Shown: piece by piece, positions 59,556 to 63,050 of the stretch | Layout of the letters: each line of letters starts with the position of its first letter | Numbering within the stretch: position 1 is the stretch's first letter | Source of the DNA: Gordonia shandongensis DSM 45094 | GTDB taxonomy: Bacteria > Actinomycetota > Actinomycetes > Mycobacteriales > Mycobacteriaceae | Direction: 5' to 3' | Assembly: GCF_000423025.1 (NCBI RefSeq) | Contig: NZ_AUHE01000004.1 | Coordinates: 1-64,000, forward strand | DNA: 64,000 nt | Notes under the pieces: model-generated | The model's database searches: none | Told to the model about the DNA's origin: nothing | Seen by the model: the letters and a program-made list of their open reading frames with translations, nothing else | Position numbers and translations under genes: made by a program

Positions 59556-60068
59556 GTGGCCAGGGTCGATCAGACGCCGGACGACCATGATCCGATCGCC
59601 CTGGCCCGACGCAATTGGGAGGACGCCGGCTGGGGCGGCGCCGTCGCCGACGGCATGGAGGCCGTCACCTCGGTGATGCGCGCCCACCAGATCATGCTGG
59701 CCCGCGTGGAGCAGGAGCTCAAACCCTTCGGACTGTCGTTCTCCCGGTTCGAGCTCCTGCGCCTGCTGGCCTTCACCCGCCACGGCGCCCTCCCGATCTC
59801 CAAGGCCAGCGACCGACTCCAGGTCCACGTCTCATCGGCGACCCACGCGGTGGGCCGCCTCGTCGATGCGGGCCTGGTGCGGCGTGAACCGCACCCCACC
59901 GACGGTCGGACCACCCTCGTCGCCATCACCGAGGAGGGGCGCGAACTCGTCGAGAAGGCGACGGTCGCGATCAACGTGGTGTTCGCCGACCTCGGGCTCG
60001 CCCGCGACGAATCGCGGGCGCTGGTCTCGGCGATCCGCAGTCTCCGCCGCGACCACGGCGATTTCTGA
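59556..60068 (+). CDS. MarR family regulator of the valine operon
   Basis: A 170-residue protein from GTG 59556, behind GAGGAG. The winged HTH is at about residues 70-125 (LPISKASDRLQVHVSSATHA, AVGRLVDAGLVRREPHPTDG, RTTLVAITEEG), with a helical N- and C-terminal dimer region. It follows mmsB by 20 bp in the same transcript, so feedback on the palindrome at 55855-55872 is likely. Ligand is unknown; a pathway CoA ester or keto acid is possible. Confidence 0.9.
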   Translation: MARVDQTPDDHDPIALARRNWEDAGWGGAVADGMEAVTSVMRAHQIMLARVEQELKPFGLSFSRFELLRLLAFTRHGALPISKASDRLQVHVSSATHAVGRLVDAGLVRREPHPTDGRTTLVAITEEGRELVEKATVAINVVFADLGLARDESRALVSAIRSLRRDHGDF

Positions 60069-60098
60069 GAGGTCCCGTCACGCGGGTAAACTCGTCTA

Positions 60099-60116
60099 CC
60101 GTGGCCCTGACCACGG
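60099..60116 (+). other. Hairpin at the start of the gdx leader
   Basis: CCGTGG and CCACGG pair around CCCTGA, four bases before the riboswitch. It may end MarR transcription or fold with the riboswitch. Confidence 0.5.
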
Positions 60117-60119
60117 GCC

Positions 60120-60161
60120 CCGGACGAGCCCGCCGTACCCGGATCGCGACAAGACGGTGGC
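60120..60161 (+). promoter_or_regulatory. Guanidine-III (ykkC-III) riboswitch
   Basis: Blocks of the motif are in order: CCGGACGAG, then GCCGTACCCGG, then GACAAGACGG. This follows the Thermobifida fusca guanidine-III aptamer as I remember it (CCGGACGAGG, CGCCGUACCCGG, GGACAAGACGGCGC). It lies 16 bases before an ATG with a GAAGGGA ribosome-binding site, so ligand-bound folding could free or hide that site. The downstream gene is a Gdx-type exporter, the usual partner. Fine base-pairing was not computed. Confidence 0.85.
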
Positions 60162-60176
60162 CCGAAGGGAACCGTC

Positions 60177-60491
60177 ATGCAGTGGATCGTCCTGGTCGTA
60201 TCCGGCCTTCTCGAGGCCGTCTGGGCCACCGCGCTCGGACGCTCGGAGGGGTTGCACCGTCTCACCCCGACCATCGTCTTCTTCGTCGCACTTTTCCTGA
60301 GCATGGCCGGACTCGCCTATGCCATGCGGGATCTGCCGACGGGCAGCTCGTACGCCGTCTGGGTGGGGATCGGCGCCACGGGCGCCGTCGCCTACGGGAT
60401 GGCCACCGGCGCCGAGGCGGCGGGTCTGGCGAAGATCCTCTGCGTCATCGCCATCGTCGGCGGCGTCATCGGTCTCAAACTCGTCAGCTGA
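60177..60491 (+). CDS. gdx: Guanidinium exporter Gdx (SMR family)
   Basis: A 104-residue four-helix SMR protein. The essential Glu13 is in GLLEAVWATALGRSEG, and the SugE/Gdx-type SSYAVWVGIGATGAVAYGM lies in helix 3. Gdx transporters expel guanidinium in exchange for protons, working as antiparallel dimers. The upstream guanidine-III aptamer strongly supports guanidinium over quaternary-ammonium drugs. Only 15 bp separate it from the convergent response-regulator gene. Confidence 0.9.
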   Translation: MQWIVLVVSGLLEAVWATALGRSEGLHRLTPTIVFFVALFLSMAGLAYAMRDLPTGSSYAVWVGIGATGAVAYGMATGAEAAGLAKILCVIAIVGGVIGLKLVS

Positions 60492-60507
60492 CCGCGTCCC
60501 GGCGGCG

Positions 60508-61164
60508 TCAGGTGACCGATCGGGGTTCGGGCAGGCCGGCGCGGGCGGCGACGACCGCGGCCTGCACCCGCGACTGAACCTCGAGTTTCACCAGGACGCG
60601 CGACACGTGCGTCTTCACGGTGGCCTCCCCGATGTGCAGTCGCCGAGCGATCTGGGCGTTCGACCACCCGGCTCCGAGGCCCGCGAGCACCTCTGCCTCC
60701 CGTTCGGTGAGGACGCTCAGGTCGGGGCCCGACTCGCGGCGCCGTCCGCGCATCGCTCCCACGACGACGCCGATGACGGCCGGGTCCAGGACGGCGTCGC
60801 CGCCGGCGACACGGCGCACCCCGGCCACCAGTTCGGCTCCCGACGCCGATTTGAGCAGGAAGCCGTCGGCTCCCGCGGCGAGGGCGCCGAGCACGTACTC
60901 GTCGACGTCGAACGTCGTCAAGACCAGAACGCGCGCCGACGTCTCGGCCAGCACCCGATCGGTGGCGGCCAGACCGTCGATCCCCGGCATCCGGACGTCC
61001 ATCACCACCACGTCGGGCCGCAGGCGACGGGCCGCGTCGATCGCTGCGGCACCGTCGGCCGCCTCCCCCACCACGGTGATCGCCCCGGAGGCCTCGAGGA
61101 CCATGCGCAGTCCCTCGCGGACGGCCGCGTGATCGTCGGCCAGCAGCACGCGGATCCGGGTCAC
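60508..61164 (-). CDS. Response regulator, NarL/LuxR family
   Basis: A 218-residue regulator. The receiver domain has IRVLLADDHAAVREGL and the phosphoacceptor Asp in VVVMDVRMPGIDG; the LuxR HTH is LSVLTEREAEVLAGL to IARRLHIGEATVKTHVSRVL. GTG 61164 overlaps the kinase stop by GTGA. Together with the kinase it is a two-component system; target genes and signal are not evident. Confidence 0.93.
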   Translation of the reverse strand: MTRIRVLLADDHAAVREGLRMVLEASGAITVVGEAADGAAAIDAARRLRPDVVVMDVRMPGIDGLAATDRVLAETSARVLVLTTFDVDEYVLGALAAGADGFLLKSASGAELVAGVRRVAGGDAVLDPAVIGVVVGAMRGRRRESGPDLSVLTEREAEVLAGLGAGWSNAQIARRLHIGEATVKTHVSRVLVKLEVQSRVQAAVVAARAGLPEPRSVT

Positions 61165-62384
61165 GAGGCCTCCCACCGGTACCCCGACCCGGAGCCCGCC
61201 GACTCGGGCCCCACCGACTCGGGCCCCACCGACTCGGTCCCCGCCGACCCGGTCCCCGCGGGGATCCGCGCGACCACGATCCACCGGTCGCCTGCCGCCC
61301 CGGCGCTCAGGGTCCCGCCGAGGCTCTGGGCCCGGACGGCCATGTTCGCGACCCCCTGCCGTCTCCCACCGTCCGCACCCACACCGTCCGCGCCCACGGC
61401 GTCCCCGCTTGCGCCGTCGGCACGCCGGTTGCACACCGTCAGGACCGCGTCGTCGCCGTCGCGGACCACGTCCACCGTCACGTCCCGACCGGGCGCATGG
61501 GACGCGGCGTTCGCGAGGGCCTCGCTCGCGATGCGGGTGAGGACGGCCTCGACACGACTCGGGAAGATGTCGGCCCGTCCGGTGATCGTGACCTCACCGC
61601 CCACCGCCTCGGCCGCCGCGATCAGCGGCTGCAGTGACACCCACCGCGCCGTCCTCACCTCGTCGTCGTCGGCGGCGAGCAGATCGATCATGTCGCGCAG
61701 TTCGGTGAGGGCGGCCAGACTGTTGGCCCGCATCGACGCGATCGCCTCACCGGGGTCGGGCAGGTCGCGGGCGGCTTCGGCGAGGATGGCGATCGCCGAG
61801 ACGTGGCCGGCGACGGTGTCGTGGAGTTCCCGCGAGAGTCGACGACGCTCCTCGGCGAGCGCCGTCGCGCGGGCGGCGTCCGCCGCCACCCGTTCCGCCG
61901 CCGCCGCACGACGGCTGGCGACCACCGCCCACGCGTACCCGATCGGTGAGACGAGGAACGCCGCGAGCGCCAACCCCACGATCACCCCGGCCCGGGCGTC
62001 GTACAGGAGCCCGACGACCCCGGCGGCGCCGAGCGACACCCCCGTCCCGGTGCCCGTGACGATCCGCCGCAGCCACGGCCGTTCCGCGGTGGCCGCGGCG
62101 AACACGATGTCGGACATCGCGATCCACAGCGGCAGCGACCCTCCGGACGGCGCGTCGACGACCAGCAGGACGGCCATCGCCGCGAACGCCGAGGCGGGAT
62201 ACCGCAGCGCCGCCAGCTGCAGGGTGAAAGCGACCAGCAGGAGCAGGACCGTCACCGGCGCCGAATACCCGCCCAGCGCCGGGACCAGGGTGAACACCCC
62301 GCACGCCCAGAGCAGCACCCCGACCCCCACCGTGACGAGTGCGGCGTAGGGCATGTCGGGCCGCGAGCGCTGGATCCAGATCAT
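61161..62384 (-). CDS. Sensor histidine kinase (HisKA_3 type)
   Basis: A 407-residue kinase with about five or six N-terminal membrane helices (no large extracellular domain). The H-box is SRELHDTVAGHVSAIAI with the phospho-His; the ATPase domain has ASEALANAASHAPG (N-box) and RQGVANMAVRAQSLGG. The last ~30 residues are a 5-residue repeat (VGPES). The start at ATG 62384 is the best choice; GTG 62387 and ATG 62354 are alternatives. Membrane helices may sense the envelope; the inducer is unknown. Confidence 0.88.
   Translation of the reverse strand: MIWIQRSRPDMPYAALVTVGVGVLLWACGVFTLVPALGGYSAPVTVLLLLVAFTLQLAALRYPASAFAAMAVLLVVDAPSGGSLPLWIAMSDIVFAAATAERPWLRRIVTGTGTGVSLGAAGVVGLLYDARAGVIVGLALAAFLVSPIGYAWAVVASRRAAAAERVAADAARATALAEERRRLSRELHDTVAGHVSAIAILAEAARDLPDPGEAIASMRANSLAALTELRDMIDLLAADDDEVRTARWVSLQPLIAAAEAVGGEVTITGRADIFPSRVEAVLTRIASEALANAASHAPGRDVTVDVVRDGDDAVLTVCNRRADGASGDAVGADGVGADGGRRQGVANMAVRAQSLGGTLSAGAAGDRWIVVARIPAGTGSAGTESVGPESVGPESAGSGSGYRWEAS
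61186..61260. repeat. 15-bp tandem repeat, five units, at the kinase C-terminus
   Basis: Units such as GACTCGGGCCCCACC at 61201, 61216, 61231 and 61246, and a diverged one at 61186, are in frame and encode VGPES/VGTES/AGTGS-type pentapeptides at the C-terminus of the sensor kinase. Confidence 0.9.
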
Positions 62385-62492
62385 CACCTCGACTACAGCA
62401 CATCCCTCGGGTTCCCGGGTCCCCCGGAAGGATGACCGCGCAGCGACCGGTCGGCGGATCCGCCACCGACGGATCCCGCCGACACTGAAGGC

Positions 62493-63050
62493 ATGACCGA
62501 GCCCGATGGCATGACCGAGCTGACCGATCCCGTCCTCCTCACGATCGTCGCCTGCGAGATCGGGTTCTGGGTTCTCGTCCTCGGCGGCCTGCTCCTCCGC
62601 TACCTCGCGCGACTGTCCCGCACGTCGATGGTGGTCCTCGCACTGGTCCCCGTCCTCGACGTCGTGCTGCTGGCCGTCGTCGCGATCGATCTCGCCCGCG
62701 GCGGCGAGGTCGCCTTCGCACACCGGATCGCACCGATCTATCTCGGCGCCACCGTGATGTTCGGTCACCGGATGATCGCGTGGGCCGACGTCCGGTTCGC
62801 CCACCGATTCGCCGACGGACCCCCGCCCACACCGATCCCGAAGAAGGGGCCCGTCCGTCGGCGCCACGAGTGGCGGGAGTTCGCCCGCTGGCTGGGGGCG
62901 GCGGGCATCTCCGCGGCGATCACCGCACTGCTGGGGTTCACCGTCGCCGACGACGCCCAGCGCGAAGTCATGTTCGGCAGCTTCCAGATGCTCGGCGTCG
63001 TGACCGTCATCTGGTTCGTCACCGGCCCGGTGTGGACCCTCGGCGAGTGA
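62493..63050 (+). CDS. Membrane protein of unknown function
   Basis: A 185-residue protein with four predicted helices (LLTIVACEIGFWVLVLGGLL, MVVLALVPVLDVVLLAVVAI, then AAGISAAITALLGFTV and MLGVVTVIWFVTGPVWTLG). A WADVRFAHRF-type loop carries conserved charged residues, and a Pro-rich, basic cytosolic stretch lies between (PPPTPIPKKGPVRRRHEW). It is divergent from the kinase, 108 bp away. I recall similar actinobacterial membrane proteins, but no function. Confidence 0.7.
   Translation: MTEPDGMTELTDPVLLTIVACEIGFWVLVLGGLLLRYLARLSRTSMVVLALVPVLDVVLLAVVAIDLARGGEVAFAHRIAPIYLGATVMFGHRMIAWADVRFAHRFADGPPPTPIPKKGPVRRRHEWREFARWLGAAGISAAITALLGFTVADDAQREVMFGSFQMLGVVTVIWFVTGPVWTLGE

Follow-up and report, generated by a model that had tools for sequence, protein, structure and literature searches.

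The 64,000 nucleotides analysed here (Gordonia shandongensis DSM 45094, contig NZ_AUHE01000004.1, positions 1 to 64,000; hereafter the window) contain on their forward strand a guanidine-III riboswitch, as judged by sequence, at 60098–60163, followed by gdx, a gene for a predicted guanidinium exporter of the SMR family. In the reading favoured here, with a probability of roughly 0.9, the RNA is an ON switch that acts on the translation of a Gdx guanidinium/proton antiporter. RNA and gene are identified by sequence, and their co-occurrence and the recurrence of an alternative pairing were observed; guanidine binding, gene activation by switching, and transport are predicted. The features discussed below are the following.

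60087–60092, +, -10-like box TAAACT, 33 nt 5' of the aptamer core (from TANNNT statistics)
60098–60163, +, guanidine-III (ykkC-III) aptamer (full RF01763 match)
60103–60119, +, 5' hairpin of the family (P0), GGCCC/GGGCC, adjoining the core (Rfam alignment)
60120–60123, +, P1 5' strand CCGG, partner 60139–60142 (Thermobifida fusca numbering 1–4/21–24, PMC5696562)
60124–60127, +, conserved ACGA core (alignment to the published structure numbering, PMC5696562)
60130–60136, +, P2 5' strand CCGCCGU, partner 60154–60160
60153–60176, +, proposed OFF hairpin GACGGU-gg-CCC-GAA-GGG-a-ACCGUC (MFE leader fold and recurrence in relatives)
60164–60170, +, Shine-Dalgarno GAAGGGA, 6 nt 5' of AUG 60177 (anti-SD duplex)
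60177–60491, +, gdx, predicted SMR-family guanidinium exporter, 104 aa, stop codon included (PF00893, Gdx-Clo and SugE matches)

Identity and extent of the aptamer

The initial annotation had proposed a guanidine-III riboswitch from three conserved ykkC-III blocks and had named an Infernal search with the Rfam model as the check. When all Rfam families were run against the whole window, guanidine-III was the single match at gathering thresholds, covering 60098–60163 on the forward strand over the full length of the model (1–67) with 52.3 bits against a gathering cut-off of 36 (E 5.8e-8), and at E <= 0.001 no second guanidine-III match was found in the 3.33 Mb genome. The three blocks are present in the order described, as CCGGACGA (60120–60127), CCGUACCCGG (60133–60142) and GACAAGACGG (60148–60157). 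The interval originally given, 60120–60161, holds the pseudoknot core but is not the whole aptamer, whose 5' edge lies at 60098 and which includes the 5' hairpin.

For comparison, 138 distinct riboswitch sites were obtained, among the matches listed, from 197 records; 21 records had no site, 18 of them MarR loci. The sites come from the best-scoring loci and hence lean toward good matches, and the leaders, being mutually related, are not independent. A Gdx-like open reading frame was recognised by pattern at 131 of these 138 sites and not at the remaining seven, and L009 is probably a gdx gene that the pattern overlooked. Of the 131 leaders, 130 entered the -10 count, 130 the folding set (L106 was dropped for an N) and 126 the pair counts (four more lacked anchors). 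The window is counted inside all of these sets, and "listed" below refers to sites and leaders among the matches listed.

All four P1 pairs are formed in the window, and P1 is nearly invariant over the 126 listed leaders. Aligned to the T. fusca structure (PMC5696562), C60125, G60126 and G60135 correspond to the ligand-contacting C6, G7 and G17, so that all three are intact. In P2, seven of seven pairs are possible, one of them G-U. The P2 pairs 16-37, 14-39 and 12-41 are formed in 126, 124 and 115 of the 126 listed leaders, window included; they survive two-sided changes, and each count exceeds those in all 500 shuffles. Pair 13-40 is formed in only 64 of the 126 listed leaders.

Some variation was seen within the class. 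In the window, the triple helix has a third strand (within 60128–60160) that lacks one base relative to T. fusca, a length shared by 45 of the 138 listed sites, and pair 14-39 is G-U in the window, as it is in 20 of the 126 listed leaders. The aptamer of Gordonia effusa (L101:4904-4991) is longer by about 25 bases, which lie between P1 and the GACAAG block, and is still scored at 46.6 bits by Rfam.

A possible OFF hairpin at the start codon

The canonical ribosome-binding site claimed earlier was recovered as GAAGGGA at 60164–60170, 6 nt 5' of the AUG, and its duplex with a generic anti-SD tail (not drawn from this genome) amounts to -9.5 kcal/mol. The minimum free energy fold of the leader contains a hairpin at 60153–60176 that takes up both ACGGU 60154–60158, which is needed by P2, and the GGG of the Shine-Dalgarno sequence, and whose 3' end adjoins the AUG. 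Its energy is -11.8 kcal/mol, and 7 of 200 dinucleotide shuffles were as stable; leaving out G60153 and shuffling the downstream part alone, 62 of 1000 shuffles reached it. The leader as a whole is not unusually stable (z -0.47).

Related leaders carry such a strand far more often than expected by chance. A full 5/5 complement to the P2 3' strand (G-U allowed) within 8 nt of the start was found in 47 of the 130 listed leaders, compared with a mean of 6.5 and a maximum of 15 in 500 shuffles, and in 40 of these 47 it ends exactly at the start codon. When the abutting place alone was tested, 41 of the listed leaders, 36 of them distinct, had the complement. A full five-pair strand at the start is absent from 83 of the 130 listed leaders. 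The motif YYGUC stands directly 5' of the start in 43 of the 130 listed leaders versus 8 of 738 other Shine-Dalgarno-led starts that were chosen mechanically in the same records. A sixth pair is possible in 30 of the 41 listed leaders with an abutting complement (2000 shuffles: mean 23.8, with one reaching 30).

Leaders with a diverged shared strand give a mixed picture. Where the P2 3' strand reads GACUG, an OFF strand CAGU[CU] occurs in three of five listed leaders, as against 2 of 114 standard listed leaders that match GACUG. Taking all 16 listed leaders with non-standard shared strands, at least one of which is a misparse (L069), five match their own strand and six the standard one.

Folding was compared in the same set. 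The segment that begins with the shared strand and runs to the start was more than one standard deviation more stable than its shuffles in 70 of the 130 listed leaders and more than one standard deviation less stable in 7. In a crude nested model of Shine-Dalgarno accessibility, which cannot hold a pseudoknot, forcing P2 lowered the cost of opening the Shine-Dalgarno sequence in 91 of the 130 listed leaders (by at least 1 kcal in 75) and raised it by at least 1 kcal in 20. For the window, the effect of forcing P2 was weak (from 4.59 to 3.82 kcal/mol).

Taken as a model, the hairpin at 60153–60176 is likely the OFF state of the leader; strands of this kind are above chance in relatives and are not found in most of them. 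We consider it somewhat probable that a single strand-exchange platform is common to many actinobacterial guanidine-III leaders, in which a copy of the P2 5' strand (YYGUC) placed before the start competes for GACGG. If so, the nearly invariant GACGG would have two alternative partners, one in the pseudoknot with bound ligand and one in a hairpin enclosing the Shine-Dalgarno sequence. A common OFF strand would offer a simple and testable account of how the guanidine-III class might control translation. No published description of the hairpin was found in the titles and abstract openings of the papers listed, and the primary validation paper of the class (Sherlock and Breaker 2017) may already draw it.

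Proposed mechanism

The transcript would begin at the base of the 5' hairpin. Without guanidine, folding and comparison suggest that GACGGU 60153–60158 would pair with ACCGUC 60171–60176 directly 5' of the AUG and CCC with the GGG of the Shine-Dalgarno sequence, and ribosomes would be kept out. Once guanidinium is held by C60125, G60126 and G60135, the pseudoknot would form and P2 would capture ACGGU 60154–60158; the OFF hairpin would then be left without its outer stem, gdx would be translated, and the Gdx exporter would reduce guanidine, which is toxic. A translational ON switch is also the published view of guanidine-III (PMC5696562, PMC12186494).

The 5' hairpin, a putative promoter and other modes of control

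A hairpin at 60099–60116 had been noticed in the initial annotation and suggested to separate the riboswitch from marR read-through. The hairpin was confirmed (-9.0 kcal/mol, matched in stability by 2 of 200 shuffles). It overlaps P0 at 60103–60119 (-8.7 kcal/mol; 4 of 200 shuffles as stable), however; the two are mutually exclusive, and the P0 register is the family's own hairpin. A role as terminator or insulator was rejected, because no terminator-like site was found in 59900–60600 and the hairpin lies inside the Rfam family model. The core is directly preceded by a stem of five or more base pairs in 85 of the 126 listed leaders (100 shuffles: mean 21.2, maximum 30). Six base pairs in the P0 register are possible in four leaders whose Gdx proteins are about 78–83% identical to that of the window (L138, L139, L141 and L144), and just two in L082, whose Gdx is 71% identical.

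Upstream of this hairpin lies the box TAAACT (60087–60092). In 60 of the 130 listed leaders, a TANNNT motif begins between positions -40 and -25 relative to the core (200 shuffles: mean 10.2, maximum 18); a control interval lying 30 nt further upstream had one in 4 of the 130 listed leaders. Because a strict sigma-70 (E. coli-type) scan found no promoter, the promoter at TAAACT is a putative one, proposed from the TANNNT statistics. From the sequence, transcription would likely start at about 60098–60101, at the base of the 5' hairpin.

Such a start would also suit a different output of the same riboswitch, in which the folded aptamer near the 5' end mainly stabilises the mRNA by blocking RNase E scanning and the release of the Shine-Dalgarno sequence is secondary. 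A review describes guanidine-III as shielding mRNA from RNase E besides freeing the Shine-Dalgarno sequence (PMC12186494), and the predicted transcript begins at a hairpin that adjoins the aptamer. We regard mRNA stability as an unlikely main output, however, for on its own it leaves unexplained an OFF strand that abuts the start codon far more commonly than by chance.

Transcriptional control through a guanidine-switched terminator, whether the hairpin before the core or one further downstream, is very improbable: a G+C-rich hairpin does sit 5' of the core, yet it belongs to the family model, the stretch scanned for terminators was empty, and only 13 nt lie between the end of the aptamer match and the AUG.

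Neighbouring genes and co-occurrence in relatives

Upstream, the same strand encodes methylmalonate-semialdehyde dehydrogenase and 3-hydroxyisobutyrate dehydrogenase, both above cut-off, as well as a MarR regulator and a protein resembling acyl-CoA dehydrogenases for which no model exceeded its cut-off. Convergent to gdx, at 60508–62867, the reverse strand encodes a NarL-like response regulator as well as a sensor histidine kinase with a weak MadS match; both score below their model cut-offs.

With marR ending 29 nt 5' of the aptamer on the same strand, the two genes could be thought to form a unit in which MarR controls gdx. In 12 of 59 Gordonia genomes, window included, a close MarR homologue lies no further than 1 kb from gdx, upstream on the same strand in five and convergent in seven, and eight of the nine genomes without gdx retain a MarR that is 64–70% identical (both counts taken by eye from tables). 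Since MarR changes orientation relative to gdx between genomes and survives where gdx is absent, a MarR partnership is rejected as highly unlikely, and MarR is most probably a bystander.

RNA and exporter, on the other hand, are retained or lost together in Gordonia, as one unit. Counting a match of an SMR protein to gdx at E <= 0.001 as presence of the gene, both were found in 50 of 59 Gordonia genomes, the own genome included, and the other nine have neither. Across the family, guanidine-III RNA was found in 262 of 401 genomes. Looking from the gene, 78 of the best 80 gdx loci in named records have the RNA, 77 by pattern and L101 by Rfam after the pattern had missed it; in the two others (L049 and L073) no RNA was found by pattern or Rfam.

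Other arrangements were also observed. Two loci of the same genus (G340:C23:10464-11167 and G325:C1:3675229-3675932) have a guanidine-III RNA followed by two adjacent SMR genes, each 48–51% identical to the gdx of the window, which by sequence suggests a paired, possibly heterodimeric, exporter. At six loci (L004, L011, L025, L026, L030 and L031), the open reading frame after the riboswitch has a common start that is not that of Gdx; the one in L011 matches agmatinase/ureohydrolase models below their cut-offs. In the genome of Gordonia shandongensis itself, the agmatinase model TIGR01230 had no match, and the urea carboxylase model TIGR02712 gave partial matches below cut-off, as it matched in all 14 control genomes, of which one passes. 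By these two models, no route for guanidine breakdown was identified there.

The gdx gene and its product

The product of gdx belongs to the SMR family (PF00893, 66.1 bits, cut-off 23.7, E 4.3e-18). The initial annotation had called it Gdx-type, and this is borne out: the best match of known structure is Gdx-Clo (6wk5), aligned gaplessly with E 2.4e-19, compared with E 8e-6 at best for EmrE, and the Gdx residues E13, W16, S42, Y59 and W62 and the GIG motif (G64-I65-G66) are kept, although some of these are common to EmrE. The top-scoring NCBIfam model is the SugE equivalog NF008512 with 100.8 bits; the cut-off is 126, and the NF008512 name is therefore not assignable by the NCBIfam test. By its sequence, the protein is closer to Gdx than to Qac/EmrE, and guanidinium/proton antiport is predicted. 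Guanidinium as the cargo, as read from the RNA in the initial annotation, is likewise a prediction, because Gdx proteins also transport some guanidinyl compounds with hydrophobic substituents (PMC9574504).

The least probable explanation is a Qac-type multidrug exporter preceded by a relic RNA: NCBIfam does list quaternary-ammonium SMR models for the protein, all below cut-off as SugE is, but the large difference in E between Gdx-Clo and EmrE, the joint retention or loss of RNA and gene in 59 genomes and the intact ligand-contacting bases speak against it. With Gdx as the preferred reading, the SMR gene gains a well-founded functional name in place of the generic multidrug or QAC pump label it would otherwise carry.

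Comparison with known systems

Earlier publications describe the guanidine-III class, the ligand and the association with SMR genes (PMC2864571, PMC12186494, PMC5696562, PMC7266159). The RNA of the window shares with RF01763 the full-length match, the P1 and P2 pairs, the ligand-contacting bases and an SMR gene next to it in an actinobacterium, and differs in the shorter third strand and the G-U at 14-39 mentioned above.

With the T. fusca guanidine-III RNA (PMC5696562) it has in common the core sequence and pairing and a ribosome binding site soon after the aptamer. The Shine-Dalgarno sequence follows P2 after 3 nt in the window versus 16 nt in T. fusca, and whereas the T. fusca paper speaks of a tendency to form secondary structure there, a specific OFF strand is proposed next to the AUG in the window.

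The exporter resembles Gdx-Clo (PDB 6WK5 and others) gaplessly over residues 1–103, including the central Glu, Trp, Ser and Tyr and the GXG motif. Identity is 39%, however, and the KEP that follows TM3 in Gdx-Clo is GAE in the protein of the window; KEP is absent from all eight aligned relatives.

Within the genus, a ykkC-III RNA of the same class was reported in 2024 from Gordonia polyisoprenivorans 135 (PMC11117675), which is another species, in a passage that gives no mechanism. The class is thus already known in Gordonia, and the riboswitch of the window is a clear but ordinary member of the guanidine-III family.
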